This document shows positions 4,409-62,312 of a stretch of 64,000 bases of DNA, in pieces. Every line of letters starts with the position of its first letter. The stretch's first letter is position 1. Source of the DNA: a virus; the IMG/VR virus record IMGVR_UViG_3300029915_000012, positions 36,142 to 100,141 of that record. One strand, given 5' to 3'. Position numbers and translations under genes: made by a program. The notes beneath the pieces are model-generated. The model was not told where the DNA came from. It saw only the letters and a program-made list of their open reading frames with translations, and did no database searches.

Positions 4409-5104
4409 ATGATAGAAACATATAATGAATATGTAGAACTAATAAAAGAAGGACTAATTAGAACTCATAATATAATAACATATGAAGGTAGTTTAGAAAG
4501 AGAGTTATATTTAATTGGGATTAAATTTGAAATAAAAATTTACAATAAATTAAAATTTGATCTATCATTATATAAAACTAATATTATTGATAATGATTAT
4601 CTTGAATATATTGTTAATTATATTGAAAAACAATTAGGATATTATCCTTCATATATAACAGTTGAAAATAATATTGGTAAAAATGGGTTTAAATTTGATA
4701 AAAAGTATTTATCAAATAAATATAAATCAATTAAGATAAATTTTGAAGCTAAGTACGATGATGGATTTTATAAAAATATTATAAAAGTTCCTAAAATTGC
4801 ATATCACTTATCACCAGTTGATAATGAAGATAAAATAAATAAAAATGGATTATGCGTAAAGGCATATAATAGAAAAGGTGAACATCCTGAAAGAATATAT
4901 TTATTTGCTGATATTAATGAATATGATGATTTATTAAATTCGCTTAAAATTGATGATAAATTAAAAGGTATAAATAAAAATTATAATTTATATGAGGTTG
5001 AAATGAGTGATAAAAATATTATACATACTGATCCTAATTACAGTAACGGTTTTTATACCTATGATAGTTTTAATCCAAAATTTTTAAAAATAATAAAAAC
5101 ATAA
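4409..5104 (+). CDS. ADP-ribosyltransferase-fold protein, tandem copy 1
   Basis: A 231-residue two-domain protein. The N-terminal ~125 residues (starting MIETYNEYVELIKEG) form a domain shared with the next gene and, more distantly, with 32295-33041. The C-terminal domain has YHLSPVDNEDKINKNGL, PERIYLF, NLYEVEM and GFYTYDSF. This order (H-containing strand, helix ending in GL, R-I-Y-L strand, V-E/V-D strand, Tyr-rich strand) is like RNA 2'-phosphotransferase and ADP-ribosyltransferase folds that bind NAD. T4 encodes Alt and Mod enzymes that ADP-ribosylate host proteins, so a similar role is plausible. ELIKE-G near the N-terminus could be a prohead protease site. The fold call is by eye. Confidence 0.6.
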   Translation: MIETYNEYVELIKEGLIRTHNIITYEGSLERELYLIGIKFEIKIYNKLKFDLSLYKTNIIDNDYLEYIVNYIEKQLGYYPSYITVENNIGKNGFKFDKKYLSNKYKSIKINFEAKYDDGFYKNIIKVPKIAYHLSPVDNEDKINKNGLCVKAYNRKGEHPERIYLFADINEYDDLLNSLKIDDKLKGINKNYNLYEVEMSDKNIIHTDPNYSNGFYTYDSFNPKFLKIIKT

Positions 5105-5114
5105 TATTTAATTA

Positions 5115-5816
5115 ATGATAGATAATTATAAAGAATATGTAGAATTAATCAAAGAAGGATTAATCAGAACTCATAATATAATTAATTGTGAAAGTAGTTT
5201 AGAAAGAGAATTATATTTAATTGGATTTAAATTTAAAATAAAAATTTATAGTAAATTAAAATTTGATCTTACATTATTAAATACTAATAATTTTGATTTC
5301 GTTGATTTTGAATATATTATTGATTATATTGAAGATCAATTAGGTTATTTTTCATCATATATAACAGTTGAAAATAATATTGGTAAAAATGGGTTTAAAT
5401 TTGATAAAAAGTATTTATCAAATAAATATAAATCAATTAAAATTATATTTGAAGCTAAATATGATGATGGTTTTTATAAAAATGATATAAAGGTTCCTAA
5501 TGTTGCATATCATTTATCTCCAGTTAATAATGAAGATAAAATAAATAGAATTGGATTATTAGTAAAAACTCATAATAGAAAAGGTGAATATCCTGAAAGA
5601 ATATATTTATTTAGAAATATTAATGATTGCGATAAATTATTAAAATCATTAAAATACGATGATAAGTTAAAAGATATAAATAGAAATTATAATTTATATG
5701 AGGTAGAAATGAGTGATAAAAATATTATTCATACTGATCCTAATTATAGTAACGGTTTTTATACCTATGATAGTTTTAATCCAAAATTTTTAAAAATAAT
5801 AAAACATAATATTTAA
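5115..5816 (+). CDS. ADP-ribosyltransferase-fold protein, tandem copy 2
   Basis: A 233-residue tandem paralogue of the preceding gene, with long identical stretches such as TVENNIGKNGFKFDKKY and HTDPNYSNGFYTYDS. The putative NAD-binding elements are conserved (YHLSPVNNEDKINRIGL, PERIYLF, NLYEVEM). Substitutions are spread over both domains, so both copies look functional rather than one being a remnant. The target is unknown. It ends just before a bidirectional terminator. Confidence 0.6.
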   Translation: MIDNYKEYVELIKEGLIRTHNIINCESSLERELYLIGFKFKIKIYSKLKFDLTLLNTNNFDFVDFEYIIDYIEDQLGYFSSYITVENNIGKNGFKFDKKYLSNKYKSIKIIFEAKYDDGFYKNDIKVPNVAYHLSPVNNEDKINRIGLLVKTHNRKGEYPERIYLFRNINDCDKLLKSLKYDDKLKDINRNYNLYEVEMSDKNIIHTDPNYSNGFYTYDSFNPKFLKIIKHNI

Positions 5817-8634: not shown

Positions 8635-9316
8635 AAAATATACATTAAATGAAACATATGAATTATCTGGAAAGAATTCATTTTTAACTTATTTGCAGAT
8701 AGTTTCAAATCATGATTATCATTTTATTTCGAATGATACATATAGAAAATTATACAAATATCATGTATTTTTTTCAACTGAAACTATAACAGGAATAGAA
8801 GATTATGTAGATATTTTTAAATATAAACACTCATTAGCATCAGCATATGAAATATTATTACAAATAAAAGATAATAAATTAGCATTCTTTTTTGGTATAA
8901 AAGAAAATTCTACATTAAGATATGGATTTTTAGATTTAGATACACAAAGGAGTTATGTTGTTGGAGAATTTATATTTACTAAAGAATTTTTTGGATCAAT
9001 ATCTAAATATAAATCTATGCAGTTTGTTAATAAAATAATACAGAATACTGATGCTAAAAAATTACCAATACTATCAAAGATAAAACAAGATTGTGAACAA
9101 TTTTACAAAGGTAAGAAGAAAACAAAAGTAGAAATATCAGACAATAAAGTGATTATTTATATAACAAGAGATCAATTCACTGATGATGATATAAATATGA
9201 ATCGTCCATTCAGATCATTAGATAATTGGGCTTCTAAAAAAATGTGGAGAAACAAAGTTGAATGTAGCGTTGATGATGAAGGCGATCCAATAAAATTTAT
9301 ATTGATAGTGAAATGA
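8618..9316 (+). CDS. Hypothetical protein
   Basis: I start this gene at 8618 (MITNFKKYTLNETYELSG), an ATG inside the upstream gene's last codons. A further in-frame ATG at 8603 would only add overlap. The first residues FKKYTLNE-T are weakly like a capsid-targeting peptide, but the C-terminus (FILIVK) lacks the FN[IL] tag. The 232-residue protein is beta-rich (YHVFFSTETITG, KLAFFFGIKEN) with a conserved-looking NRPFRSLDNWASKKMW segment near the end. The function is unknown. Its stop overlaps the first gene of the tagged chain by ATGA. Confidence 0.65.
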   Translation: MITNFKKYTLNETYELSGKNSFLTYLQIVSNHDYHFISNDTYRKLYKYHVFFSTETITGIEDYVDIFKYKHSLASAYEILLQIKDNKLAFFFGIKENSTLRYGFLDLDTQRSYVVGEFIFTKEFFGSISKYKSMQFVNKIIQNTDAKKLPILSKIKQDCEQFYKGKKKTKVEISDNKVIIYITRDQFTDDDINMNRPFRSLDNWASKKMWRNKVECSVDDEGDPIKFILIVK

Positions 9317-9576
9317 AATACTTAAAAAGATTTGAAAATAAGGAAAAAGAATATAATATTGATGATTATATAATTGTTCATAATAATATATATGTAGGAA
9401 CTAGTAAAATATTTAAAATTGTTGATATTGTAAAAAATGCATATTATCCATATAACGTTATTGGAGTAAATGGAGATATTCATTTTTTAGAATATAAGGA
9501 CATAAAAAGAAAATTATCTAAAAAAGAAATTGAAAAATATGAATTAGATAATATATCAAATAAATTTAACATATGA
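9313..9576 (+). CDS. Two-ended-tag protein, small beta-barrel-like
   Basis: An 87-residue protein beginning MKYLKRFENKEKEYN and ending NKFNI. The middle has DDYIIVHNNIYVGTSKIFKIVD and YNVIGVNGD, a pattern of short strands like SH3-type barrels. Its end, KLSKKEIEKYEL before the tag, aligns with YLTTDEIDEFES in the minus-strand gene at 26335-26607, so the two are paralogues. I infer a packaged internal protein cut after the Glu of RFE. It is first of four genes overlapping by ATGA (stop TGA inside the next ATGAAA), so translation is coupled. Confidence 0.75.
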   Translation: MKYLKRFENKEKEYNIDDYIIVHNNIYVGTSKIFKIVDIVKNAYYPYNVIGVNGDIHFLEYKDIKRKLSKKEIEKYELDNISNKFNI

Positions 9577-9911
9577 AATATTTAAAAAGATTTGAAAATA
9601 TTAATAATAATCCTGAAATTGGGGATTATATTATTATAGATAAACTTAATAATATACTAGGTCCAAGTTATGATGATATTTTTTATTTTTTGAATAATAA
9701 TATTGGCAAAGTTGTTGGATTTGGAAATGTATATAACGGAAAAGGTATTAAAATCAAATTTTTTAATATACCAAAGAATCTAAATACTCATTTTAATCCT
9801 GATCATATAAAGATTTTTCCAATGAATTCTATTTTAGCATTTGGTAAAAACAAAGAAACTGTGAAAGAAGAAGCTGAAATACAACGTAATATAAAGAAAT
9901 TTAACTTATGA
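9573..9911 (+). CDS. Two-ended-tag protein, small beta-barrel-like
   Basis: A 112-residue protein beginning MKYLKRFENINNNPE and ending KKFNL. The body PEIGDYIIIDKLNN, IGKVVGFGNVYNG and GIKIKFFNIPKN reads as a short SH3 or KOW-like barrel, similar in layout to 9313-9576. It is second in the ATGA-coupled chain. The function is unknown; head packaging is inferred from the N-terminal tag. Confidence 0.75.
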   Translation: MKYLKRFENINNNPEIGDYIIIDKLNNILGPSYDDIFYFLNNNIGKVVGFGNVYNGKGIKIKFFNIPKNLNTHFNPDHIKIFPMNSILAFGKNKETVKEEAEIQRNIKKFNL

Positions 9912-10255
9912 AATATATTAAAACATTTGAATCAATATCAAAAGGAATCAATAATATAACTACTATTGATTGCTCTGGAGATAATTTAACTGAATTACCT
10001 GAATTACCAGATAGTTTAATTACTTTATATTGTAATAATAATTTTTTAACTAAAATTAAAAAATTACCTCCTAATTTGAAACATTTAAAATGTTCTCATA
10101 ATCATAATTTATCTGAGTTACCTATATTACCAGAAACTATGACTGAATTACGTTGCTATAACACTAAATTACCTTATAATAATCTAATTGAATATAAAAA
10201 ATGGTTAGATAAAGAGCATCCTGAAATATCAAAATCTAAACAATTTAATTTATGA
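9908..10255 (+). CDS. Two-ended-tag leucine-rich-repeat protein
   Basis: A 115-residue protein beginning MKYIKTFESISKG and ending KQFNL. Residues ~15-95 are bacterial-type leucine-rich repeats of ~20 residues: TTIDCSGDNLTELPELPDSL, TLYCNNNFLTKIKKLPPNL and KHLKCSHNHNLSELPILPET. The LPxLPxxL spacing is as in IpaH- and YopM-type effectors. LRRs bind proteins. With a capsid-targeting-like N-terminus, the simplest reading is a small protein delivered with the DNA to bind a host factor; this is inference. It is third in the coupled chain. Confidence 0.8.
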   Translation: MKYIKTFESISKGINNITTIDCSGDNLTELPELPDSLITLYCNNNFLTKIKKLPPNLKHLKCSHNHNLSELPILPETMTELRCYNTKLPYNNLIEYKKWLDKEHPEISKSKQFNL

Positions 10256-11034
10256 AATACTTAAAATATTTTGAAACAAAATTAGAAGTTGAATATCATT
10301 GTCTTGAATGTGGATGGATAGGCTGGTTACCTATGACCAAAATAGTTAAATGTCCAAATTGTGGAAATATTAATGATATATGGAAAGAAGGCGAATCAAT
10401 ACCTGAAAGACATAAAAAAATGAATTATTTATCTGAAAATATTAATATTATTAAACAACAACCTTTTTATTTAAGTGGAGATATATTATACATATCAGAT
10501 GATATGGCAAAATTAATGACTCCAACATATGCAAAATTAAATAAACTTTATAAAAATAAAGGAGTTCGTGATTATATCAATCAAGAACAAATTGATTTTT
10601 ATAATAATGAAAAAGATGATAAAGGTTATTATAAATCTAGAAATATTAATACTAATATAACTGTAAGATATGAAAGGATGTATGCTATGACAATACTTAT
10701 AAAAAGACTTGGTGGAGTTCTTGAAAATAAATATGGAGAATTTCAATATTTTATAGGAGGAACATCAGGAGATCACGATATGCATGGTAAAAACATGGTG
10801 AGAGATACAAAAGAATGTAATTATAATCTAATGATAAAATATTATCCTATTATTGAACATATAAAAAATTTTTACAAAAGATTAAAATCTAAAGACGAAG
10901 GATTTTTTGATATAATTAAAGATTCATTAGATAAAGATATAATGTTAGCTCAATACGGGGTACCAAAAGAACTAAAAAAATATTTCAAAAATGCTGAAGA
11001 TGTGGCAATAAATGTTAATAAATTTAATATATAA
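10252..11034 (+). CDS. Two-ended-tag protein with zinc ribbon
   Basis: A 260-residue protein beginning MKYLKYFETKLEVEYHC and ending VNKFNI. A zinc ribbon spans residues 17-37 (C17, C20, C34, C37: YHCLECGW and KCPNCGN). The remainder is alpha/beta with GVLENKYGEFQYFIGGTSGDHDMHGKNMVRDT, a Gly/His/Asp-rich stretch that could be an active site, but I do not recognise the family. It is last of the coupled chain and is followed by a ~90-base gap without another coupled start, yet it still ends FNI. This argues that the C-terminal tag is protein-level, not a translation signal. Confidence 0.75.
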   Translation: MKYLKYFETKLEVEYHCLECGWIGWLPMTKIVKCPNCGNINDIWKEGESIPERHKKMNYLSENINIIKQQPFYLSGDILYISDDMAKLMTPTYAKLNKLYKNKGVRDYINQEQIDFYNNEKDDKGYYKSRNINTNITVRYERMYAMTILIKRLGGVLENKYGEFQYFIGGTSGDHDMHGKNMVRDTKECNYNLMIKYYPIIEHIKNFYKRLKSKDEGFFDIIKDSLDKDIMLAQYGVPKELKKYFKNAEDVAINVNKFNI

Positions 11035-17300: not shown

Positions 17301-17768
17301 TCTATGTCATTAAATATACAACAAAATATAATGAATACTTCAAACGGCGTATCATCAGATAATTCTATTTATAGATATAACGGCTCTTATGAACCAATAT
17401 TTAATACAATACCAGTATTTAATAATACATTTTTATATGAATCAGGAAATACTATAAGTCAATTTGAATCAAACTATAAATTCGATACTTCATTTGAAAA
17501 CTTCGGTATGATTGAAGAATTAATTTATTCAAAAATTAATCCTGTAATATCTCCATTAAAATTAAGTAATACTAATACTGATGTATCTGTGTATCCAATA
17601 GTTGACGAATTTGGATATCAGTTTTCTTCAAGATTTATATTTAGCTCATCTTGGGATAACGATTTTTATGTAATAACAAATAATACTCAAAATATGAATA
17701 ATAATGTCTTTTCAAATTTTTCTAACTATGAATATATAATTGATCCAATAAAAAATATAAATGATTAA
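14334..17768 (+). CDS. Very large virion structural protein, probable baseplate or tail component
   Basis: A 1144-residue protein beginning MINNSFQLLRTNPALTTNVK, rich in Asn, Tyr, Ser and Asp, with many short beta strands and SGNT-type turns (GNTIKSMYGDLYLIL). No enzymatic motif is seen. The start LLRTNPALTTNVKLVV resembles openings of large tail-associated proteins in Bacteroidota phages as I remember them, but I would not name a T4 counterpart. It is co-directional with 11128-14313. Its stop overlaps the next tagged gene (TTAATGAAA). Confidence 0.7.
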   Translation: MINNSFQLLRTNPALTTNVKLVVSSDYKFYLESFDTNSQLSNQKYKHFSISKNNLYENQIVKFYDGLSSQLAFDVKYDSDDSTVFSKYEQQFDDIYWSGAKSVEDTWYNETYEYFAPLFIRKNNIPDGFVILRVDDSAPYDIQDDDLGAGKITKDNFNSQIVNNWKCVSFVDMRYNTDLGLFLNTNITNNTSYPERSFDLDFRSYEYSKFYGIDYNNGGYVNISNFLQSTLQYEQPHFKLESDIIESFKTNNLIYPHILNFKFLFNDVPADPVNIHNYSLNRYYGFYADKLELITNLTSYITPELISGFTLKNNIFGYMSGSTFIPTNESPFVEGFFLDKTYWIQLTSSETDNEFYQVVLVYNNGVNTYRVISDFDMSGSTFNVSNDRTCFINYTDGYIYNCQTINNPSGITNYISGYTSNFNIDPYYSGNTIKSMYGDLYLILIDGIYHVLKCKNDSYFIQSDYAINSYTTGLEYWKGGKNSNYYTTKQIYTYGNKPLIYPVYRIKFNDIKDFDFNRVNTHFADFDYEKDIYTATDEQKLYAIDYTDTSVLSQNYMTYPRGEDGQYQIMNVSSEYIADDELYEISFNDLTEIWRKNPSVVKWGFAGSNSNCDYPYKLNNSISIGDVFNATADVFSLLPTEVEKNLDYCYRIGNFFSGNTNNIIKYLNQTTNIEVDFMENYSKKFNLDLYLNSNVDYFDYFFKNKTYFTIDDINYTKQTLKYSTFQAGDIYTASSTLFKGLNINALNVTSVSRDINGSITSIVADNSKNFNDYKFAIILNDVYQYYTGNTYDSTYEGGLSGNTIIDISSNAIHAFLNEEFKNILVVVNVKIPIQKNYISLNNVAFFGEKFGLYNSKTLDGNSLVYPANVKEFDPSLIVASNIFNAFYDMNSLSEFDSGITYYYINSIGQSGYTAPMNTTGGTMALIPDWVKNDTPFILNLNDPAVLTTKQNSYIKTAIKGPLTNIYDKYQVYYDTNQKTKYNVSEPLARSMSLNIQQNIMNTSNGVSSDNSIYRYNGSYEPIFNTIPVFNNTFLYESGNTISQFESNYKFDTSFENFGMIEELIYSKINPVISPLKLSNTNTDVSVYPIVDEFGYQFSSRFIFSSSWDNDFYVITNNTQNMNNNVFSNFSNYEYIIDPIKNIND

Positions 17769-18085
17769 TGAAATATATTAAAACTTTTGAAAATGAATTA
17801 TATAATGAACCAACATATTGGTTATTGCCGACTGATGATAGATTTGAAAAATCTTTAAAACAAATAAAATGTCCTAATAATAATATTAAATTTTTTTTAA
17901 ATAATAATAGAATTAAAAATATTAAATATGTATTCATTTGTTATTCACCATATAATAAACAATGGGAATGGAATTCATATAAAGGTAAATTACTTGACGA
18001 TTATCTTGAAGAAAATAATTATAAATTTGGTGGACATATAAATATGAATGAATTAGAATTAATTGCTGATAAATTTAACATATAA
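17768..18085 (+). CDS. Two-ended-tag protein, tandem paralogue 1
   Basis: A 105-residue protein beginning MKYIKTFENELYNEP and ending ADKFNI. The body carries YWLLPTDDRFEKSLKQIKCP, YVFICYSPYNKQWEWNSY and a last YKFGGHINMNELEL. All three segments recur in the next gene. The function is unknown; the fold looks alpha/beta. The N-terminal tag suggests packaging in the head. It follows the giant structural gene directly. Confidence 0.75.
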   Translation: MKYIKTFENELYNEPTYWLLPTDDRFEKSLKQIKCPNNNIKFFLNNNRIKNIKYVFICYSPYNKQWEWNSYKGKLLDDYLEENNYKFGGHINMNELELIADKFNI

Positions 18086-18089
18086 CTAT

Positions 18090-18482
18090 ATGAAATATAT
18101 AAAAATGTTTGAAGAAAATATATATGAAAATATATATGAAAATATATATGAAAATATATATGAAAATATATATGATAGTAGATGCTATTGGTTATTACCA
18201 ACTGATGATAGATTTGAAGATTCTTTAAAACAAATAAAATGTCCTGATTTTAAAATAGAACAATTTTTAGGTAATAAAAATATGAGACAATATAATTATG
18301 TATTTGTTGGATATAATCCAACTAAAACTGTAGATGACGATGTTAGTCTTTGTTGGGGCTGGAACTATAAAGTTAATTGGAATAAAAATACTGAAGATTT
18401 TTATGAAAAAAAAGGATATAAATTTATGGGAAATATAAATATACCTGATTTCGAATTTGATGTAAATAAATTTAATATATAA
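18090..18482 (+). CDS. Two-ended-tag protein, tandem paralogue 2 with ENIY repeats
   Basis: Read from the ATG at 18090 (MKYIKMFEENIYENIY) this is a 130-residue paralogue of the preceding gene, with YWLLPTDDRFEDSLKQIKCP, YVFVGYNP and YKFMGNINIPDF, ending VNKFNI. An upstream in-frame ATG (18063) would add nine residues encoded inside the previous gene and hide the tag, so I reject it. Five copies of the tetrapeptide ENIY, encoded by perfect 12-base repeats, sit immediately after the tag and are absent from the paralogue. Confidence 0.75.
   Translation: MKYIKMFEENIYENIYENIYENIYENIYDSRCYWLLPTDDRFEDSLKQIKCPDFKIEQFLGNKNMRQYNYVFVGYNPTKTVDDDVSLCWGWNYKVNWNKNTEDFYEKKGYKFMGNINIPDFEFDVNKFNI
18114..18173 (+). 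repeat. 12-base tandem repeat, 5 copies, in frame
   Basis: GAAAATATATAT repeated five times without change, encoding ENIY x5 directly downstream of the N-terminal tag of the gene at 18090. Copy-number slippage would keep the frame. Confidence 0.95.
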
Positions 18483-19279: not shown

Positions 19280-19738
19280 ATGTCAGAAAACATTGAACTA
19301 GACTCAAGACAAAAATTTCAAAAAAAAATGATAGAATCTACAAAACAATGGATCGCTATTGTTAATAAATTAACTAATAGATTAATTAACGACGATCTAA
19401 AAAATATTGCAGATATTCAGGCAGAAGCTATAAGTCAACGACAAATTGTAGTCGAAGAAATTAAAAATTATAGCGTTAAAATACATAAACTGGTTCAAAA
19501 AACAAAAGTTCTAACAAAAGAAAGATTTGAATTCTATGCAACATCATATCAAGTTAAAACGTCTGGAACAGAAAAATTAAGACTTATCGAAGCAGATTTA
19601 TCAGAACATCAATGCTTTATAAATGAACTAGATGAACATGTAAATTTTTTAAGAGATACTTCTAAAAATCTAGAATCTATAAACTATTCAGTTAAATCTA
19701 AAATTGAACTGGCTAATATATTAGGAGGTTACAAATAA
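19280..19738 (+). CDS. uvsY: UvsY-like recombination mediator
   Basis: A 152-residue, mostly helical protein. The region LTKERFEFYATSYQVKTSG...EKLRLIEADLSEHQCFINELDEHVNFL resembles the T4 UvsY core (KARLDYYSG, then a helix with SADKDVL and LLDFCSGAL) in spacing and chemistry, and the length is near T4's 137. UvsY loads the UvsX recombinase onto single strands coated with gp32. The call is strengthened by position: uvsW lies 550 bases downstream with small genes between, as in T4. It follows a candidate promoter and its stop overlaps the next ATG. Confidence 0.75.
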   Translation: MSENIELDSRQKFQKKMIESTKQWIAIVNKLTNRLINDDLKNIADIQAEAISQRQIVVEEIKNYSVKIHKLVQKTKVLTKERFEFYATSYQVKTSGTEKLRLIEADLSEHQCFINELDEHVNFLRDTSKNLESINYSVKSKIELANILGGYK

Positions 19739-19971
19739 TGATAACTAATAATTATATTAAAAAATTTGAAATAAAATCAGATTTTATAATAGCAGAAGGA
19801 ATGAATAGCCCAAAAATTACAATAATACATTTCGATGACTCAAAATATATTTATAATTCTGACAAACTATCATTTGATTTATTAGATAATACTATTAAAA
19901 ACCATATAAATATTGTTTGTTTAAAACAAATTAGAAAAAAGAAATTATTTTTATTAAATGAAATTAGATGA
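19738..19971 (+). CDS. Small hypothetical protein between uvsY and uvsW
   Basis: A 77-residue protein beginning MITNNYIKKFEIKSDF. The start codon overlaps the uvsY-like stop (TAATG). It is basic, with an alternating beta pattern (KITIIHFDDSKYIYNS) and a Lys/Arg-rich end. NYIKKFE is faintly like the N-terminal tag, but there is no FN[IL] end. T4 also has small genes of unknown role between uvsY and uvsW. Confidence 0.6.
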   Translation: MITNNYIKKFEIKSDFIIAEGMNSPKITIIHFDDSKYIYNSDKLSFDLLDNTIKNHINIVCLKQIRKKKLFLLNEIR

Positions 19972-20140
19972 TTTGGCATATAAATTATTTATAGAAAAAT
20001 TTGGATTTATTTCAATTCAGGATTTTAAAATTAATATTTTTATGAAAAATAAAAATAGATATAAATCATATTACGATAAAGCAAATAAAATTCTAAGAAA
20101 AGAAAAATTAAAGACATTAAAATCATATGGAACTAAATAA
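19958..20140 (+). CDS. Small basic protein, tandem paralogue 1
   Basis: A 60-residue protein beginning MKLDDLAYKLFIEKFGF. It shares (F/Y)KSYYDKANKILRKEKLK with the next gene, marking a tandem duplication. It is Lys-rich and helical, possibly nucleic-acid binding. It overlaps the preceding gene by 14 bases and the next by 14. Confidence 0.6.
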   Translation: MKLDDLAYKLFIEKFGFISIQDFKINIFMKNKNRYKSYYDKANKILRKEKLKTLKSYGTK

Positions 20141-20300
20141 TTTAGCATATAAATTATTAATAAACTACTTAGGATTTACTCCAAAGTATTATTGTAAAAA
20201 AGATTTTTTTATTAAAAATAAAAATAATTTTAAATCATATTACGATAAAGCAAATAAAATTTTAAGAAAAGAAAAATTAAAGGCATTACATGAAATTTAA
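20127..20300 (+). CDS. Small basic protein, tandem paralogue 2
   Basis: A 57-residue protein beginning MELNNLAYKLLINYLGF and ending LKALHEI. The segment FKSYYDKANKILRKEKLKAL is nearly identical to the preceding gene. Its last 11 bases overlap the uvsW start, so the three small genes and uvsW look translationally coupled. Confidence 0.6.
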   Translation: MELNNLAYKLLINYLGFTPKYYCKKDFFIKNKNNFKSYYDKANKILRKEKLKALHEI

Positions 20301-21852
20301 ATTAAATAAAGACAATTCAAAGTTAATTTTAACAGAATCAACCAAAGGAGAATATAACCAACTTAAACTATATCTAACCAGAAAAGTTCATAACTACCGT
20401 TTTATGAAAAGGTTCAAGCTTGGTGTATGGGATGGAAGTATAAGTTATTTTGGAAATCCAGGTGGATCAATTGACTTTGGATTATGGCAAGAAATATATA
20501 AATGTTGTAAAGAGTATGGTTATAAATTTATAATTGAAAATCAAGAACAATTTCCACGTAATAAAGATATATTAAGAGAAAATGTACAAGATTTTGTGAC
20601 TGAATTTTATAAAGATCATAAAACTCCTGATGGTAAACCTTTTATGCCATATGAACATCAAGTAGATGCAATATTTCAATTATTAAAACATCAATATGGA
20701 TTAATTGAAATTGCTACTGCTGGAGGTAAATCATTGGTATTTGGCACATTACTATTTTATTATTTAAAAAATATAAATACAAATGCTAAATTTTTATTGA
20801 TTGTCCCAAGTATAAGTTTAGTTACTCAATTTTATAATGATCTTAATGATTATAATTACGGTTTTAATAATGATAATAAAAACCCTATTGATATTAGAAT
20901 TGATGAAGTTATGAGTGATAAACCAAGAAAATATAGAGATGGTGAAAAAATACCAAATATATACATTGGAACTTATCAATCATTAGAAAAATATCCTAAA
21001 ACATTTTTTGACCAATTTGAAGTTGTAGCATGTGATGAAGCACATACTGCAAAAGCTATTACCATTCAAACTATTTTAACAAAAACGTTTGGAGTTGCAA
21101 AATTACGATTCGGAATGAGTGGATCTTATCCTTCGGATTCTTCAATAGAAATATTAACAATTCAATCTTTAATGGGTCCTAAATTAATAAATATTAGTGC
21201 TAGAAAATTAATAGATAAAGGATTAATATCAGATCTTAAAATAAAAGTTATCATGTTACATCATGATAATCATAAATTTGCAGAAGGAGTTAATAATATA
21301 AAAAAAACTGACGGTCAACGTGCATGGATTTTAGAACGTGAATACGTACATAATTCAGCAAAAAGAAAAACATTTATTAAAAATTTAACAGATAAATTTA
21401 AATCTAATTCTCTTATATTATTTCATACTATTACTTATGGAACAGAATTATATAATTATATCAAAGATAATTGCATTGGTAAAGATGTGTTCTATATTGA
21501 CGGTACAACATCTACAGAAAAAAGAGAATATATCAAGAAAAAATTAGAAGATACTTCAGGTAATCCTAAAATACTTTTAGCATCTTTCGGAGTATTTTCT
21601 GTCGGCGTAAGTGTTAAAGCAATAACAAATATTATCTTTGCGGATTCTTATAAAGAGCCTAAAATAATAAGGCAAGCAATAGGGAGAGGTCTAAGATTAC
21701 ACAAAGAAAAAACAAAATTAATCGTATTTGATTTGGTAGACATTTTTCATCCTGACTATAAAACAATATTATGGAAACAATATGAATCTAGAAGAGATGA
21801 AGTATATAAAAAACAACAATATCCTTATGATGAATTAAAGGTCAAATTATAA
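20290..21852 (+). CDS. uvsW: UvsW-type superfamily 2 helicase
   Basis: A 520-residue protein (T4 UvsW is ~500). The N-terminal ~100 residues (VHNYRFMKRFKLGVWDGS) match the UvsW DNA-binding domain. The helicase motifs follow in order: ATAGGKS at 142-148 (motif I, Walker A), DEAH at 249-252 (motif II), GMSGS (motif III), ILFHTI, and RQAIGRGLRLH (motif VI). UvsW unwinds R-loops and branched recombination intermediates and helps the switch from origin-dependent to recombination-dependent replication. It is coupled to the small genes upstream. Its stop abuts exactly the stop of the convergent homing endonuclease. Confidence 0.93.
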   Translation: MKFKLNKDNSKLILTESTKGEYNQLKLYLTRKVHNYRFMKRFKLGVWDGSISYFGNPGGSIDFGLWQEIYKCCKEYGYKFIIENQEQFPRNKDILRENVQDFVTEFYKDHKTPDGKPFMPYEHQVDAIFQLLKHQYGLIEIATAGGKSLVFGTLLFYYLKNINTNAKFLLIVPSISLVTQFYNDLNDYNYGFNNDNKNPIDIRIDEVMSDKPRKYRDGEKIPNIYIGTYQSLEKYPKTFFDQFEVVACDEAHTAKAITIQTILTKTFGVAKLRFGMSGSYPSDSSIEILTIQSLMGPKLINISARKLIDKGLISDLKIKVIMLHHDNHKFAEGVNNIKKTDGQRAWILEREYVHNSAKRKTFIKNLTDKFKSNSLILFHTITYGTELYNYIKDNCIGKDVFYIDGTTSTEKREYIKKKLEDTSGNPKILLASFGVFSVGVSVKAITNIIFADSYKEPKIIRQAIGRGLRLHKEKTKLIVFDLVDIFHPDYKTILWKQYESRRDEVYKKQQYPYDELKVKL

Positions 21853-24869: not shown

Positions 24870-25691
24870 TTACATATTAAAATTTGCTGCATCTTTTTCT
24901 AAATTAAAAACATTAGATATTTTACAATAATATATAACTGTAAATTTAATACCTACTATTTCTTTATGATCTTTAACTTTTGCTGTCATATATATAGTAT
25001 CACCTTTTTCTACTATTCTACCAATATTATAAGTCATATATCTATTACCTTCTTCATCTATTAATTTACAAGTATATTGAGTGCCAAATTCAGTGTTTTG
25101 GATTTTAAAATTATAAACATCAGCTTTTATTGTAATTTTACTTCCAATCTCACCAACATATTTACTTATACTTTCTTCTTGATTTTTTTTGGTTAATGTT
25201 TCAAAGAATAGATTTTTATATTTTTCAATTTCATTCGCCATATCTTCATTTCCTTGAAATCCTTTAGATAACCAAACAACATATTGAGGATCATCTACGA
25301 ATACTTCACCTATTGTTTCTCCACGATGTTTTCCAAATTTTAATATTTTATTTTTTTCTGCTTGAAATAATCCAGCATATGTACCAAATCTATCTATAAT
25401 AACTGGAATTTGACCAGAAGCTTTAGCAGCTTTTTTAACTGCTGTCGTAAAGTCAGTACTTAAATTACAAATATAATAGCATGATGCACTTCTTGGATTC
25501 CATCTCCAAAAAGTATAATAAACGGAGTATTTTCCAGATACATCTATATAAAAGCAGCCTACATCTCTAATTGTCAATTTTTTATCTTTTCCTTCTTCTA
25601 ATATTTTTTCAGCTTCTAAAACATCTTCATCACTTGGTTGTATGAGTTGATTCATTTTAGCTTCTTTGATATATTGCAAGTATGTTTTCAT
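24870..25691 (-). CDS. Two-ended-tag protein with ExoX C-terminal-like domain
   Basis: A 273-residue protein beginning MKTYLQYIKEAKMNQ. This is strikingly like the T4 internal-protein targeting peptide as I recall it (MKTYQEFIAEA), with cleavage after Glu-10. It ends AANFNM. Residues ~113-160 (ILKFGKHRGETIGEVFVDDPQYVVWLSKGF) match the small C-terminal domain of ExoX-type exonucleases and DUF3820. A later beta-rich part (~175-260) could be an OB-like fold. No exonuclease catalytic DEDD motif is present. I infer a packaged DNA- or nucleotide-binding protein. Confidence 0.75.
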   Translation of the reverse strand: MKTYLQYIKEAKMNQLIQPSDEDVLEAEKILEEGKDKKLTIRDVGCFYIDVSGKYSVYYTFWRWNPRSASCYYICNLSTDFTTAVKKAAKASGQIPVIIDRFGTYAGLFQAEKNKILKFGKHRGETIGEVFVDDPQYVVWLSKGFQGNEDMANEIEKYKNLFFETLTKKNQEESISKYVGEIGSKITIKADVYNFKIQNTEFGTQYTCKLIDEEGNRYMTYNIGRIVEKGDTIYMTAKVKDHKEIVGIKFTVIYYCKISNVFNLEKDAANFNM

Positions 25692-27377: not shown

Positions 27378-28979
27378 TTAAAAAGTATACACTTTCCAAT
27401 GGTTTCTTTTAGTATTTTTGCTAGAACAGTCAACTGGCTTTATATCGGTTAGCTGCCAACGGTATATAATTCCCGCCTTTTTGAATAGTTTATAAAGGCT
27501 TACCCAGTTTTCACAATCTTTAACAACTGAAACATCAGGAAAAGAATTAATAAATCTTTCAACCACTGTGTTCAGCATTGTACTTGTAAATTTTGGATAA
27601 AAACCATTCTTATCATATTTATAAGCTCCTCTTCTTCCGATTTCAGTTGCTGCTGCAACAGGGTCGAATACTGAGTAATTTATATTTCCGATAAAACTTG
27701 AATAACAAGGATTAACTTTTATTAATATTAATCCATTATTATCACAATGTTTATTTATTAAATTTGTTTGGAAGCCTAAGTTCCAACAATTATTTATTTT
27801 ACGACGAACTTCTTTTGACATTTCATCCTGACTATTTGATTTAAAGTTTAAGTCTTCCATCACAAAATAACCACACTTGTAGTGAGTTATTATATCAAAT
27901 ATCTTAACGTAAATGTTACCGATTTCATGTTTTCTTTTTCTGGTTAGATAAAGACTTTCGTCTACGGTAACATCTTTACCTGATTTTTTCATCAACTCAC
28001 TTAAGTCATAACATTTACTATCAATTACTTTAACTTCATCATTTGATGTTTTATCTAAGATTACTAAACCAATATAATCAGGATTTAAATCAACTGCAGC
28101 AAATCTATTTTGATTTTTGCCTACAAGTTTTCGTGATGTTTGTTCTTGTTTATGTTTAATGTAAATGTTTTTGTCGTACTTACCATTATTCTTTTCTTTG
28201 ATTTCCTTGATGTAAGTTTTATAATCAAAAGGTTCACCATTAATCATTTCATTATCAACTGTAATACAAAGATATTCATGATCTAACTTGACTGAAATAG
28301 GTAATATATTTAAGTCTTTAATTAATTGAAGATCCTTCAATTGTTTCTTATAATTACCTTTAACTACATAATTGATATAAATTTTATTCTCGCTGTTCAT
28401 TTTATAAATGATTTGATTATTAGTAAAATCAAATTCAAAAAATCTATTAGAATTAGGATCACATTTAGATCCGTAAAGACTCAAAGGAAGGATTCTATTC
28501 GAATGATATTCATCTGTTTTAGTAATTATAGTGTTTTTATTTTCCTTTTTATCATTATTTAAGTAGGATATTTCTTTTAGTAGTTTTCTTGTACCGAAAG
28601 TAATATCCTTTGATAAATTTCTATTTTTATAACTTAAGTTTTTCTGATATTTAAATAGATTCCTTGTTTCTTTTTTGGTTAATTTTATTTTTGATTGTAA
28701 TTCTTTTATATCATCTTGTAAATCAAGTATTTCCTGTGATAATTTATCTTTATTTGTTTGAATTTGCTTAAATTTTGTCTTAACATCAATTATTAAACAG
28801 TTAGACTCGTAAACACTCAAACCATATATTTTAGTTAATTTAGTAATATATTCTTTATCATTAATTTTATCATAATGTTTATAAAGTTTACGAAAGAAAT
28901 ATGAAAACTGTTTCTGACGATTTAATATTTTAAGTTTACCCTCTTCACTAACGTTAAATCCAACTTTTATTGATATCAT
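27378..28979 (-). CDS. tnpB: TnpB-like RNA-guided endonuclease homologue
   Basis: A 533-residue protein. An N-terminal helical region contains a long coiled coil (~70-145). The three RuvC motifs are present: FAAVDLNPDYIGL with D297, FVMEDLNFK with E375, and FDPVAAATEIGRR with D439. Between motifs II and III there is only NPCYSSFIGNINYSV; the usual TnpB four-Cys zinc finger is absent, and a ~90-residue extension follows motif III. The catalytic triad looks intact, so it may be active. TnpB proteins cut DNA guided by a transposon-end RNA and help the element persist. It starts 33 bases after the tnpA stop, across a 36-base-period repeat. Confidence 0.85.
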   Translation of the reverse strand: MISIKVGFNVSEEGKLKILNRQKQFSYFFRKLYKHYDKINDKEYITKLTKIYGLSVYESNCLIIDVKTKFKQIQTNKDKLSQEILDLQDDIKELQSKIKLTKKETRNLFKYQKNLSYKNRNLSKDITFGTRKLLKEISYLNNDKKENKNTIITKTDEYHSNRILPLSLYGSKCDPNSNRFFEFDFTNNQIIYKMNSENKIYINYVVKGNYKKQLKDLQLIKDLNILPISVKLDHEYLCITVDNEMINGEPFDYKTYIKEIKEKNNGKYDKNIYIKHKQEQTSRKLVGKNQNRFAAVDLNPDYIGLVILDKTSNDEVKVIDSKCYDLSELMKKSGKDVTVDESLYLTRKRKHEIGNIYVKIFDIITHYKCGYFVMEDLNFKSNSQDEMSKEVRRKINNCWNLGFQTNLINKHCDNNGLILIKVNPCYSSFIGNINYSVFDPVAAATEIGRRGAYKYDKNGFYPKFTSTMLNTVVERFINSFPDVSVVKDCENWVSLYKLFKKAGIIYRWQLTDIKPVDCSSKNTKRNHWKVYTF

Positions 28980-28980
28980 A

Positions 28981-29046
28981 TATTATCTTGTAGTTCTTTT
29001 TTAATTTTATATCATTTATTATCTTGTAGTTCTTTTTTAATTTTAT
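28981..29046. repeat. 36-base-period direct repeat between tnpA and tnpB
   Basis: A ~30-base stretch beginning TATTATCTTGTAGTTC occurs at 28981-29010 and again at 29017-29046. The second copy encodes the last residues of TnpA, so the tnpA 3' end has been duplicated in the gap before tnpB. Confidence 0.9.
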
Positions 29047-29614
29047 TTAATTTTCTTCTATTTGAATATGATTTCATAGAGAAATAATGAATAATAGAAA
29101 TCAAATCATCTGTTAATTCTTGTTCATAACTTTTGTTTTGTATGTTATCACTTATGACTATAATTTTAGTACCAAAATATTTAAATACTTCAGTAATAAG
29201 GTCGAATCCAAATCTACATAATCTATCTTTATTTTCAACTATAACGCATTCAATTTTACCTTCAATAACAAGTTTAATTAATTTATTTAAACCATCTCTT
29301 TCAAATGACATACCTGACTTAATATCTTCAAATTGCTGTTCAATTACTATATCATTTAATATAGAGAATTCATAAATTCTATTAGATTGTTCTTTTAAAT
29401 CATTTTTTCTTGGTTGGTTTGAAACTCTGGCATAACTAACATTAATTCTTTTATGTTTTATTTTTTTAACTCCAATTAATTTATATACATCTTCGTCATT
29501 ATAAATATATGAATAATTATTTATTTTATTAATTTTTATTAATCCTTTTTTAATATATTTACTTAATGTAACTTGGGTTATACCCAATATTTCTTTTACT
29601 TCTTTTGCTTTCAT
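29012..29614 (-). CDS. tnpA: IS607-family serine recombinase (TnpA)
   Basis: A 200-residue protein. Residues 1-50 are a MerR-like helix-turn-helix (AKEVKEILGITQVTLSKYI). The serine resolvase catalytic domain follows, with VSYARVS (nucleophile S65), IKSGMSFERDGLNKLI and VENKDRLCRFG carrying the conserved Arg residues. IS607 TnpA proteins have this N-terminal DNA-binding domain order, inverted relative to most resolvases. It would catalyse excision and insertion through a circular intermediate. The gene appears complete, and an 18-base palindrome lies upstream. Confidence 0.92.
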   Translation of the reverse strand: MKAKEVKEILGITQVTLSKYIKKGLIKINKINNYSYIYNDEDVYKLIGVKKIKHKRINVSYARVSNQPRKNDLKEQSNRIYEFSILNDIVIEQQFEDIKSGMSFERDGLNKLIKLVIEGKIECVIVENKDRLCRFGFDLITEVFKYFGTKIIVISDNIQNKSYEQELTDDLISIIHYFSMKSYSNRRKLNKIKKELQDNK

Positions 29615-32294: not shown

Positions 32295-33041
32295 TTAAAA
32301 ATTAACTCTTTCTTTTACTCTTATTGCATAACTTAATATTGATTCATATGTATAATAAGAATTTTTCATTTTAGGGTCTTTATATAATTTAAAATCAGGA
32401 ATAGAAGAAATATCAACTTCTAATATTACCCATTCGTCGATATTCATATTGAATAATTCTGTCTTATCATATTTATTTTTAAAAAATTTTCTTTTTTCTG
32501 CACAAAATTCTTTAGCATCTGACAAATTGTCAGTTAAATATACTCTATCTACATCATTAGATATCATATTTTGAGATTTAGGAACTAATCCTATTTTTTT
32601 AATTTTTTCGTAATAATATTTTGTTGTTGCATGATATAATATATCAGGTGTTCCATCAGGTACATCAAATCTTTTTTGAAATGTTATATTAAATATTGTA
32701 TCTTTTGATATCATTATACTTTTTATTTCTAATCCATTATTATCAATTATACTAGGTTTAAAATATCCCATATTATGCATAAAACTAGTCAATTCTTTAT
32801 TAAATTGTTTTTTATTTACATTTGAAATATCAATTGATAATGAAATATATCCTTCTAATTTTTTTATTTCATATTTAATATTATATGATTTTATTAAATT
32901 ATCTAATTTTTCACAAAAAAAGTCATAATCAACAGAATGAATTAATCCCTCCTTCATAGCTAAATAAAAATGATTGTGAAAATAATCTGCTTCTTCATTA
33001 AAATTTCTATATTTTTCAAAATTTTTAAACCTATCTAGCAT
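32295..33041 (-). CDS. ADP-ribosyltransferase-fold protein, dispersed paralogue
   Basis: A 248-residue protein with the same two-domain layout as 4409-5104 and 5115-5816. The N-terminal domain contains LAMKEGLIHSVDYDFF (compare ELIKEGLIRTHNI). The C-terminal domain contains ILYHATTKYYYEKIKKIGLVP, DRVYLTDN, WVILEVDIS and SYYTYES. The YHATT...GLxP...RVYLT pattern is closer to known NAD-binding ADP-ribosyltransferase and RNA 2'-phosphotransferase folds than in the tandem pair, and it anchors the fold call for all three. The target is unknown. It is transcribed divergently from the structural gene at 33131. Confidence 0.65.
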   Translation of the reverse strand: MLDRFKNFEKYRNFNEEADYFHNHFYLAMKEGLIHSVDYDFFCEKLDNLIKSYNIKYEIKKLEGYISLSIDISNVNKKQFNKELTSFMHNMGYFKPSIIDNNGLEIKSIMISKDTIFNITFQKRFDVPDGTPDILYHATTKYYYEKIKKIGLVPKSQNMISNDVDRVYLTDNLSDAKEFCAEKRKFFKNKYDKTELFNMNIDEWVILEVDISSIPDFKLYKDPKMKNSYYTYESILSYAIRVKERVNF

Positions 33042-33130: not shown

Positions 33131-33904
33131 ATGGCTATAATCACCCCTAATGATCTTATTAATCCAACAGAAAAAACAATAAAGAACTGGAATTGCTCAT
33201 TTATTGCAGTTGAAGGTCCAAATATAATTGAAAAATTAAGCTTAGAAGATTTGGCTATTCCATATGAATCTCAATATAGATCGAGAATAGTTTTAAAAGC
33301 TGGTGAATCTAATAAAATGCTTTACGGATTTATTGGTAAGGCTGTTACATTCTTAATGATAAAAGTAACTTATGATAGTTTATCTGATCCATATTATACA
33401 TATGAACAAGAAAAATATAATATAAATTATTATTTTGAAAATGATCCTATTCTTAGACCATTAAATAGATTATTAATAATGACAGGTTCTTCTGATGAAA
33501 GAATACCACAAATTTATGTGACAAATCCATTAGATTATGACGTAACATTAGATGTATTAGAAGCAACAGTTGATTCTGAATTTGATGAAGATGATGATAT
33601 ACCTGCTGATTATCAAATACATTATGCTATAACAAATATATCAAGTACATATTCTGGAAAAACAGATGATGAATATATAAGATGTTCTGGTACAACAGAA
33701 TCAGGTTCTACATATTCATTATATTTACCGTTAGCAACTGGTACAGGAAATGTATTAACAATCAAAAATATATTAAACGGAGTTATAACTATTTTAACAC
33801 AAGATACAGATTTGATTGATGGTTTAAATTCATATGTATTAAATACTCAATATGAAGTAGTCGTGCTAATTGATGCAGGTACTGGTATCTGGGATAAAAT
33901 ATAA
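33131..33904 (+). CDS. Virion structural protein, tandem paralogue 1
   Basis: A 257-residue protein from the ATG at 33131 (MAIITPNDLINPTEKTIKNW). I prefer this over an in-frame ATG at 33095, which lies in the promoter box. Paralogy with the next gene is clear: IKNW near the start, DLAIPYESQYRSRIVL versus DIAIPYDSCYTSRIVL, and IYVTNPLDYDVTLDVLEA versus IYLNNPLDYDVVLDVMQA. It is probably a tail, baseplate or fibre-connector protein. It opens a plus-strand structural cluster that ends at 36565. Confidence 0.7.
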   Translation: MAIITPNDLINPTEKTIKNWNCSFIAVEGPNIIEKLSLEDLAIPYESQYRSRIVLKAGESNKMLYGFIGKAVTFLMIKVTYDSLSDPYYTYEQEKYNINYYFENDPILRPLNRLLIMTGSSDERIPQIYVTNPLDYDVTLDVLEATVDSEFDEDDDIPADYQIHYAITNISSTYSGKTDDEYIRCSGTTESGSTYSLYLPLATGTGNVLTIKNILNGVITILTQDTDLIDGLNSYVLNTQYEVVVLIDAGTGIWDKI

Positions 33905-33911
33905 TATAAAT

Positions 33912-34787
33912 ATGGCAAAAATAACAAGTAATAGTCTTTATGGTAAAACAAAAAGAGAAATAAAAAATTGGGGTAGAGATTTTAGAACATCAGATGGACC
34001 TCAAACATCTTCTGTTATGAGTCTCAGTGATATTGCAATACCGTATGATTCATGTTATACATCAAGAATAGTATTACCTTCTTATACTGAAGATTTTTTA
34101 TTAAATTATGGTATAATTGAAGAATCTACTTTTTTATTATTAAAAGTTACATATAATGGTAATTATGATAATGAGAATGAAGATGCGTATGATCCATATT
34201 ATTATTATGAACCAAGTACATATAATATTAATTACTATTATGATTCTAATTCAGGTATAACATATCCAATTGGAAGATTATTGCTTTTAAATGGCTCATT
34301 TCCAAATAAATTAGGACAAATTTATTTGAATAATCCATTAGATTATGATGTAGTTTTAGATGTAATGCAAGCTAATATTGAAGCTCCAATAGTTCAACCA
34401 CCAAGTAGTGCAGTAACGATATCAAATTTGTATTATAGTGACATTATAACAAATCAAGTTGAATGTTATTCTTATACTGGATTAACAACAGGATCTACTG
34501 AATTTATTATTACTGGAATTACATCTTCAATAATAAGTACAGGTTATACAATTACACAATATATAATTCCATATAATACTATTATATCAATAAATTCAGA
34601 TACATCATTATATTACATTTACATAAACACTACATCAACTTATTATACTATTAAATTTTTAACTCAATCTGATTATGAACAAGCATATTTTAGAATAATA
34701 TTCGCGTATTCATCATATACAGATGGTAATTGTAGATATTTAACTACAACAGAAACATACGATAGTGGTAATAATATAAATTGTTAA
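33912..34787 (+). CDS. Virion structural protein, tandem paralogue 2
   Basis: A 291-residue protein from the ATG at 33912 (MAKITSNSLYGKTKREIKNW), starting 8 bases after the upstream stop. Its N-terminal ~165 residues match the preceding gene. The C-terminal ~125 residues (ISNLYYSDIITNQVECYSYT, then Ser/Thr/Tyr-rich beta sequence) diverge completely, so a shared attachment domain carries different distal domains. It is probably a tail or baseplate component. Confidence 0.7.
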   Translation: MAKITSNSLYGKTKREIKNWGRDFRTSDGPQTSSVMSLSDIAIPYDSCYTSRIVLPSYTEDFLLNYGIIEESTFLLLKVTYNGNYDNENEDAYDPYYYYEPSTYNINYYYDSNSGITYPIGRLLLLNGSFPNKLGQIYLNNPLDYDVVLDVMQANIEAPIVQPPSSAVTISNLYYSDIITNQVECYSYTGLTTGSTEFIITGITSSIISTGYTITQYIIPYNTIISINSDTSLYYIYINTTSTYYTIKFLTQSDYEQAYFRIIFAYSSYTDGNCRYLTTTETYDSGNNINC

Positions 34788-45702: not shown

Positions 45703-47484
45703 TTAATCTAATGATATATTATTAATAGATTTATATTTATTGATTAATGTTTCACGATTACTAAATCCTCTACTACGTGGACTAATAATAACAATTGGTG
45801 AACTTTGAGCAGCTTTATAAACTGAAATTTTCATTTTATTAACTGCAAAATTGACTTGCTCATCCCATTGTTTAATGTCATATTTATATACTTCATCCAT
45901 TTTAGGAAAATAATCAATATTCAAAGATTTATTTTTATAATCTAAAATTAAATCATCTCTTGTTTTTCTATCACGTATTAATGAAGCACATATACCACTT
46001 TGTACCCAATAATCAATTGGATCTTCATTTGCATCAGGTAATTCTGCAGCGGGTTTAAATTTACCATTATATAAATCATATGGTACTATTTCATCATTAT
46101 ATAATTCTTTATTAATATATTCAGATAATTCATATAATTCAACTTTAGTTAAATCTCCAATAATAGCATGAACGCCAATACTTCCAATGTCATGAAAGGA
46201 AGACCAAGAAAGCACTATTTCTGTTTGATTGCCTGTTGAAACGATACCACTTTTAAATCTATGAGTATCTTCTAAACCTAATACAGTTCTTAATACTGCA
46301 TGTATTGAAGCTTTACCCGTATCACTTAGTTTAGGCGCATTTTTCATATGTACATCATCTACATTTAATATTTCATCAACTGTTGATTGAATAGGTTGCC
46401 AATATGTAATCATTCCTAATTTTTCATCTAATTGATTTACATAACTTTTAGATTTAGTATTCAATGAAGATGGATTTGAAATGAATATAGTGTGTTCTTT
46501 GCCCATAGCACGATAAACCAATGCTGCTACAATAGACGAATCAAGTCCGCCAGATACATGAACCTGAGCATTTTCAATACCTGATAATTTAAAAAATTCT
46601 TTCTGCTCAAATATAATAGCTTCAGTTATTTCTTTATATTTACTATCATTACTGCCTAATATTGGTTCACAATCTTTTAATCTGAATGTTTCAGTTTTTT
46701 CTTCAAATTTAGGAAGTTCTTTAACTAATCTTCCATAACTATTATATACAAGAGAAGCACCATCATAAATTATAATATTTTTAACTATATCACCGCAACC
46801 AACTGAATTTACTGAAATAACTGGAACCATATTATTTTTGGCAATTTTAGAAAATAAATTTTTTCTAATTTTTTGCTTTCCATAATAAAAATAAGATTGA
46901 TTAGGTATAATCAAAATTTCAGCACCCATATCAACCATTTCTCGTGAAATATCTCTACTATGATTCATAAACCAAGCATCTTCACAAATTGGTGTACCTA
47001 TAATGGTTTTACCAATACTTGGTAAATTAACTTCGAACACTTTAGTTTCAGTTCCTTCTGTAAAATATTTTCTATCTTCATGATGGTCTGTATCAGCTAA
47101 TAATTGTTTATCATATGTACGAATTCCATTATCATCAATTACAGCTACTGAATTTTTTAAAATTGGAAATCCATTTCTATTTATACCATGAGATGATACA
47201 AATCCAATTACAATTATTCCACACAATCCTAATTCTTTTCTATATTCTTCAATTTTTTTCAACCTTGAAATTTGGTCACGAATAAAATCCTCTCTATCCC
47301 AAAGAGAACCACAGCAATATCCACTAATAGCTGTTTCTGGAAACACTGATATATCTACATTATCATCATAACTAGCATGATTTTTATCCAACTTTAAACA
47401 ATTTAAAATTTTTCTGGTATTACCGATTAAATCTCCTGTAACTGTATTAATTTGGTGTACTGAAATATTTGCATTTTCAATCAT
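45703..47484 (-). CDS. nadE: Glutamine-dependent NAD+ synthetase
   Basis: A 593-residue two-domain enzyme making NAD from deamido-NAD, ATP and glutamine. The N-terminal nitrilase-type glutaminase has the E-K-C triad (E50 in FPETAISGY, K126 in DKQLL, C167 in GTPICEDAW). The C-terminal synthetase has SGGLDSS at 311-317 (ATP pyrophosphatase loop), STGNQTE, GDLTKVELYEL and KPAAELPDANEDPIDY. I start at 47484 (MIENANISVHQ) because the upstream in-frame ATG at 47529 lies across a promoter. All catalytic residues are present. A Bacteroidota-type promoter directly upstream suggests early expression by host RNA polymerase. Confidence 0.93.
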   Translation of the reverse strand: MIENANISVHQINTVTGDLIGNTRKILNCLKLDKNHASYDDNVDISVFPETAISGYCCGSLWDREDFIRDQISRLKKIEEYRKELGLCGIIVIGFVSSHGINRNGFPILKNSVAVIDDNGIRTYDKQLLADTDHHEDRKYFTEGTETKVFEVNLPSIGKTIIGTPICEDAWFMNHSRDISREMVDMGAEILIIPNQSYFYYGKQKIRKNLFSKIAKNNMVPVISVNSVGCGDIVKNIIIYDGASLVYNSYGRLVKELPKFEEKTETFRLKDCEPILGSNDSKYKEITEAIIFEQKEFFKLSGIENAQVHVSGGLDSSIVAALVYRAMGKEHTIFISNPSSLNTKSKSYVNQLDEKLGMITYWQPIQSTVDEILNVDDVHMKNAPKLSDTGKASIHAVLRTVLGLEDTHRFKSGIVSTGNQTEIVLSWSSFHDIGSIGVHAIIGDLTKVELYELSEYINKELYNDEIVPYDLYNGKFKPAAELPDANEDPIDYWVQSGICASLIRDRKTRDDLILDYKNKSLNIDYFPKMDEVYKYDIKQWDEQVNFAVNKMKISVYKAAQSSPIVIISPRSRGFSNRETLINKYKSINNISLD

Positions 47485-47511
47485 AATATATAAATGTTTT
47501 AAATTTGAGTA

Positions 47512-47543
47512 CAAAGATACATATAACAATTGATATAAACAAA
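47512..47543 (-). promoter_or_regulatory. Bacteroidota-type promoter of nadE (TTTG-N20-TATCTTTG)
   Basis: On the minus strand, TTTG at 47543-47540, a 20-base spacer, then TATCTTTG at 47519-47512. The predicted start is near 47505, ~20 bases before the nadE ATG. The -33 box overlaps the T-run of the terminator upstream. Confidence 0.7.
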
Positions 47544-62250: not shown

Positions 62251-62285
62251 AATAATAAATAAAAATATAATTTTTTTATATTTTT

Positions 62286-62302
62286 ATTTTTATATATAAA
62301 AT
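62286..62302 (+). promoter_or_regulatory. Candidate phage promoter for the homing endonuclease
   Basis: TTTTTATATATAAAATA-type box, 11 to 20 bases before the ATG at 62313. It matches the recurring box. Confidence 0.4.
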
Positions 62303-62312
62303 AAAAAATGTT

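Follow-up and report, generated by a model that had tools for sequence, protein, structure and literature searches.

A putative C-terminal address label and a T4-like N-terminal tag on many unrelated proteins of giant phages

Why do small phage proteins with different bodies begin and end alike? The question was raised by a stretch of 64,000 bases (the window; bases 36142-100141 of the 100,141-base IMG/VR record IMGVR_UViG_3300029915_000012, G000 below). A reading of the sequence alone had listed eleven open reading frames in it whose products mostly start like MKYIKxFE (N-tag) and end in Phe-Asn followed by Ile, Leu or Met (C-tag). All eleven were present with an FN[ILM] end (Table 1), and they make up 11 of the 68 genes called within the window. 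The start MK-Y-[ILV]-K-x-F-E occurred exactly in seven of them, with no match over 100 shuffles, while the starts of the genes at 5846, 24870 and 26604 resembled those of the T4 internal proteins, that of 24870 being nearest to the T4 capsid-targeting sequence. The gene at 5846 starts with TTG in the list of reading frames; the ATG that carries the tag lies at 6241. The gene at 9573 overlaps the preceding one by ATGA, the gene at 24156 has nothing close downstream, and the body of the 9908 protein is a leucine-rich repeat (phrog_21719, E 4e-13). The tagged pair at 17768-18482 sits between long open reading frames and the UvsY-like/UvsW block. Within its second member (18090-18180), in-frame 12-base repeats (ENIY) encode ENIYENIYENIYENIY right behind the N-tag, a segment missing in the paralogues.

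Table 1. Tagged genes and the UvsY-like/UvsW block of the window (coordinates of the window).
Feature	Coordinates	Strand	N-tag	C-tag
Tagged gene, 131 aa	5846..6241	-	MLNKYLDFINE	KFNL
Tagged gene, 87 aa	9313..9576	+	MKYLKRFE	KFNI
Tagged gene, 112 aa	9573..9911	+	MKYLKRFE	KFNL
Tagged gene, 115 aa	9908..10255	+	MKYIKTFE	QFNL
Tagged gene, 260 aa	10252..11034	+	MKYLKYFE	KFNI
Tagged gene, 105 aa	17768..18085	+	MKYIKTFE	KFNI
Tagged paralogue of 17768	18090..18482	+	MKYIKMFE	KFNI
Weak UvsY-like gene (phrog_231, E 0.008), then UvsW-type helicase	19280..21852	+		
Tagged gene, 236 aa	24156..24866	-	MKYIKKLNE	NFNI
Tagged gene, 273 aa (phrog_3628)	24870..25691	-	MKTYLQYIKE	NFNM
Tagged gene, 90 aa	26335..26607	-	MKYIKKFE	KFNL
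Tagged gene, 127 aa	26604..26987	-	MKNFIEFINE	KFNL

Other genes were seen in the window. A TnpB-like reading frame stands beside a MerR/serine-recombinase one and has the look of an IS607-type element (27378-29614). A likely glutamine-dependent NAD+ synthetase of 608 aa is encoded at 45703-47529. At 60766-63914 a family-B DNA polymerase-like reading frame stops at 494 aa, with a homing-endonuclease-like gene behind it; the polymerase gene may be split.

The UvsW helicase of the window was 55% identical to that of the 735 kb phage LR756501, and the 634-642 kb genomes came next with 48-49%. The capsid protein of a relative of the window (G009) was 57% identical to that of LR756501 and ranked the clade members in the same order, with about 29% identity to the Lak phages and 26% to Tenacibaculum phage PTm1. 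By the identities of these two marker proteins the window lineage fits the Mahaphage clade, which includes genomes of 634, 636, 642 and 735 kb and the Lak phages (Al-Shayeb et al. 2020; PMC7162821) and whose predicted hosts are Bacteroidetes (PMC7162821). No DNA match to a close isolate was found among phage records. The helicase is shared at 79-100% by longer relatives, among them G002 (256 kb, 100%), G006 (330 kb) and G009 (155 kb). These relatives are metagenomic assemblies, several of them fragmentary, and the genes of the fetched relatives were called by one simple codon-score caller that was blind to the tags. Counts for LR756501, LR756502, LR745206, LR756504 and LR756500 refer to sampled parts of these genomes.

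Enrichment of the C-terminal motif at protein ends was found in the window's own record and its relatives and was far larger than first noted. Ends of the type FN[ILMVF] were present in 13 of 124 genes of the window's record, 67 of 418 in G002 and 95 of 509 in G006, while 0.2-0.6 were expected from the interiors of the same proteins (about 0.6 for G002 and G006). Overall, 10 to 20% of all proteins in this giant-phage lineage carry the C-tag, on unrelated bodies; its full consensus is [A/S/T]-x-K-[F/Y]-N-[I/L]. The DNA word for K[FY]N[ILM] plus stop occurred 116 times in G006, 102 times at gene ends; in G012, which has a different ending, none of its 11 occurrences was at the end of a gene. The window's record is A+T-rich (23% G+C). 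The excess and the placement of the stop words rule out chance and A+T-rich codon use. Paralogy alone is likewise ruled out, as the 102 tagged proteins of G006 fell into 60 body clusters after their ends had been trimmed, 51 of them singletons. Pfam searches with 128 tagged proteins gave ankyrin repeats (11), leucine-rich repeats (4), one ExoX-like C-terminal domain and a few weak single matches, and the PHROGs matches were to families without description. In the structure predicted for the protein at 17768, with a mean pLDDT of 85.6, residues 1-8 were disordered and the body was folded, and a predicted helix (95-102) was followed by Phe-Asn-Ile at the C-terminus; a fold search with this model gave no significant relative. 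The motif is real, and its earlier description as unremarked holds for the open-licence literature, in which neither a report of it nor a phage precedent was found. We know of no T4 counterpart of a shared C-terminal tag.

Versions of the ending were determined by unbiased motif searches of gene ends and by inspection of one locus. KFN[IL] is the ending in the window, G002, G006, G005 and G008. G009 has KYNL and not a single gene ending in FNx, and in G007 KFN and KYN are mixed. Further endings are KFGL in L121, K[LM]GLL in G012, DDFGFFDN in LR756500 and a DFNI type in G018, and several of the variants have the pattern hydrophobic-[N/G]-hydrophobic-COOH in common. IEW[LVF] in G013 and RxxxIxxLL in LR756504 are only candidates for kinship with the C-tag, and R[DN]xKLxxLGI in LR756502 and LR745206 is only a candidate for the same kind of tag. 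About eleven sampled proteins of the 735 kb LR756501 (L191, L228, L232, L235) end in DPYGEExWxx, perhaps a C-terminal tag of its own.

Ends were also recorded for relatives of the window's proteins: KFGI for 9573 in L121, KYNL for 10252 in L022 (G009), KFNL in G006 and KYNL in G009 for 24870, and for 5846 KFNL in G006 and RYNM in G009, there without a near downstream gene. When the ends were masked, homologues of tagged G006 and G009 proteins bore the tag of their own genome in 13 of 13 (G009) and 7 of 7 (G012) alignments, these 20 alignments covering 10 distinct tagged proteins. Leucine-rich repeat proteins, for example, ended in KKFNL in G006 and in KKMGLY in G012. The sole match of a masked body outside those records was one of 31 residues in LR756502, and it was untagged. 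The ending is lineage-specific and is replaced as a block on all of its bearers.

The two motifs had been taken for one two-ended tag. N-tag and C-tag do co-occur strongly (Fisher p 3e-59 in G006 and 8e-49 in G002). C-tagged proteins are nearly all N-tagged in the window lineage, in G009 and in LR756500, and all six listed proteins of the DDFGF-x-DN type in the last have an N-tag-like start. As a general rule, the idea of a single tag nevertheless had to be abandoned, as the two ends occur on different proteins in two relatives of 635-642 kb. With N-tags detected by sequence patterns, so that such counts are approximate, N-tag-like starts without a C-tag were found on about 75 proteins of LR756502 and about 68 of LR745206, and the ending R[DN]xKLxxLGI without an N-tag on 34 and 12, respectively. 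In G012, no N-tag could be recognised on 34 of 60 C-tagged proteins, also with alternative starts taken into account. Since the N-tag and the C-tag occur apart in these three genomes, they are better regarded as two labels that can be combined. The reading we prefer, with a probability of roughly 0.45, is that of a T4-type capsid-targeting N-tag and a separate, co-evolving C-terminal docking peptide.

It is also possible, although less probable, that the N-tag targets the capsid while the C-tag is an intracellular signal apart from packaging. The C-tag would then be either a phage-specific degron or a motif by which its bearers dock to a chaperone, a protease adaptor, a factor for localisation or a hub of host takeover. 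C-tags on proteins that lack an N-tag, as in G012, raise the possibility that it works outside the head, and the endings R[DN]xKLxxLGI and RxxxIxxLL stand on small N-tag-free proteins of LR756502, LR745206 and LR756504. Moreover, a Phi-x-Phi-COOH end is like the ligands of C-terminus-reading domains. Against this stands the nearly complete N-tagging of C-tagged proteins in the window lineage, G009 and LR756500, and the LGI and LL endings are themselves candidates only.

The starts had been likened to the capsid-targeting peptides of T4 that are cut after Glu. In the ten-residue targeting sequence of T4 IPIII, targeting needs residues 4 and 7 and processing residues 8 and 10, and gp21 cleaves after L/I-x-E (PMC9026906). 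In the genomes with the KFN ending, a hydrophobic residue at position 4 and an aromatic one at position 7 followed by Glu were found in 157 proteins compared with 9.8 expected, and the enrichment peaked exactly at 4/7. The same pattern occurred 103 times (6.7 expected) in the sampled parts of LR756502 and LR745206, and 21 times (1.8 expected) in G014 and G015, where no C-tag was seen. Glu lay within three residues of the aromatic residue in 279 of 342 core tags (background 19%), and the first position after it was Glu in 214 cases and Asp in 6. The cleavage rule agrees with forms such as YIKE, FINE and FLDE, MKTYLQYIKE and MKNFIEFINE included. In the MKYIKxFE form, however, the third residue ahead of the cut (P3) is mostly Thr (73 of 228) or Lys (51 of 228) and not Leu or Ile, and cleavage after Glu is doubtful for this form. 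The likeness to T4 extends to residues 4 and 7 and the following Glu, and to the protease and scaffold of relatives.

Relatives carry a fusion of an S77 protease and a scaffold that contains 7-14 [YF][ILV]AE repeats, and this fusion adjoins a Gp23-type capsid gene; the annotation of PTm1 shows the same fusion. The capsid block is absent from the window's own record, and the Pfam models for S77 and Gp23 gave no clear match in the longest KFN records, which are without the block. Separate small reading frames of G009 (33551-34012 and 10147-10470) resemble parts of the major capsid protein. A promoter model of the capsid gene was not enriched upstream of tagged genes and so gave no sign of their late expression. 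A recurrent word of the form CAAAAAATGATTTTTTTATTTAATATATA, which stands upstream of several genes, for instance of that at 65153-65755 of G000 (29012-29614 of the window), is like the conserved sequence upstream of the relatives' capsid gene, and words of this type are probably a class of phage promoter. Three proteins of the window, a tandem pair at 4409-5816 and a third at 32295-33041, have an ADP-ribosyltransferase/KptA-like look, with a weak match to PF01885 for the third only (E 0.01); starts of these proteins (MIETYNEYVELIKE and MLDRFKNFE) resemble capsid-targeting peptides, and they have no C-tag.

Judged from these sequence features, the N-tag is probably a capsid-targeting sequence. 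That it is another targeting peptide, for example for a membrane or a replication compartment, appears unlikely: FE-type tags do fall outside the L/I-x-E rule and packaging is a prediction, but the exact agreement with positions 4 and 7, the strong preference for Glu over Asp and the fused protease/scaffold with its Y[IL]AE repeats all speak for the capsid.

Whether the ending is maintained as protein or as DNA was decided from codons and gene neighbourhoods. The sequence-only reading had noted that genes without a successor keep the ending and that its codons differ, and both points were confirmed: in seven related records tags were present on 83 of the 785 genes that lack a following start within 30 bases, and a codon comparison of orthologues indicated selection on the C-tag as protein. 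Among tagged orthologues of G002 and G006 (52 pairs), the Asn codon showed amino-acid changes in 0% and silent changes in 35%, while codons further upstream showed 38% and 13%, respectively; ten pairs isolated in both genomes behaved in the same way. Codon bias at the C-tag (AAC; ATA over ATT) does exceed that of the genome itself, and this residue of bias may stem from gene overlap and recent duplication. The tags might be relics of cassette shuffling, with conserved ends serving as recombination homology for the exchange of bodies and no peptide being recognised. Tandem arrays in which the ends stay constant while the bodies vary, and the biased codons, would fit this, but homologous bodies wear different, genome-typical tags in different genomes and the codons evolve under amino-acid constraint, which makes it improbable.

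Tagged genes often overlap the next ATG (AAATTTAAYATATGA), so that a start signal is conceivable, but the ending is very improbable as an RNA or translation feature (a start region serving the overlapping gene that follows, or an effect of the nascent peptide on how translation terminates and re-initiates), for although tagging is commoner among overlapping genes (28%) than among isolated ones (11%) and the excess codon bias would agree with it, the upstream word AAATTTAA precedes just 1-2% of other starts, tags are retained where no gene lies near downstream, isolated genes of G009 show its own YNL or YNM ends, and silent changes at Asn are common where amino-acid changes are nil. The isolated tagged genes, the rare upstream word and the codon comparison likewise exclude a start signal of the next gene as the sole cause.

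On the preferred reading, two protein-level labels would mark a large and fast-diversifying set of small proteins in this T4-related lineage of giant phages. The N-tag, an amphipathic peptide of 8-11 residues with a hydrophobic residue 4, an aromatic residue 7 and then Glu, would tie each protein to the prohead scaffold, and the protein would then be packed into the head, for delivery along with the DNA. The C-tag, K-[FYLM]-[NG]-[IL] behind a short terminal helix, would act as a docking peptide with a free C-terminus. Docking to a single receptor fits the protein-level constraint and the block replacement best, and we consider it likely. This receptor would act in trans and would most likely be encoded by the phage; since one receptor would read many proteins, tag and receptor would drift together, leaving each lineage with its own tag on all bearers. 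As to the site of action, our leading guess is that the C-tag gives the same cargo a second contact within the head, for loading or for retention, with a degron or an intracellular hub close behind. An anti-defence role of the bodies is plausible by analogy with the internal proteins of T4, which are diverse anti-defence proteins with only the targeting sequence in common (PMC3012670).

IPI-IPIII of T4 are similar in having a short N-terminal peptide with determinants at 4 and 7 followed by Glu on unrelated, diverse bodies (PMC9026906, PMC3012670), and a T4-type S77 protease and scaffold are also encoded within the giant-phage lineage. T4, however, has a handful of bearers compared with about 70-100 per giant phage, and a common form of the N-tag in the latter ends in FE, outside L/I-x-E. 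T4 Alt is also packaged and has signals at both termini, being processed by gp21 at both ends (PMC9026906), but its C-terminal propeptide is cut off, whereas the giant-phage C-tag is the extreme C-terminus, contains no Glu and has many bearers.

Short C-terminal peptides load diverse cargo into the HK97-fold shell of encapsulins. The C-tag is similar as a short C-terminal peptide on diverse proteins, and its binding to a capsid would be purely an analogy. In PTS1, ssrA, PDZ ligands and the SSB tail, a few free C-terminal residues on many proteins are read by one receptor. The giant-phage tag differs from these in that it varies among lineages and is exchanged on all bearers together.

Novelty is claimed solely for the C-tag; we regard the N-tag as a new variation on the known theme of T4 capsid targeting. 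The C-tag looks like a previously undescribed address label borne by a large number of phage proteins, and its change in concert between lineages suggests self-specific sorting. Tentatively, at least a tenth of the proteins would bear a C-terminal address private to the lineage, to be read by a phage receptor that evolves along with it. This would be a sorting code for proteins, encoded by the phage, by which each phage would recognise only its own cargo. As most proteins of giant phages are functionally uncharacterised, a label on about a hundred unrelated proteins lets a functional class be recognised from sequence, and a common C-terminal label offers a handle toward its receptor. Should the N-tag indeed serve capsid targeting, dozens of pre-made proteins may enter the host, where they would probably act against its defences.
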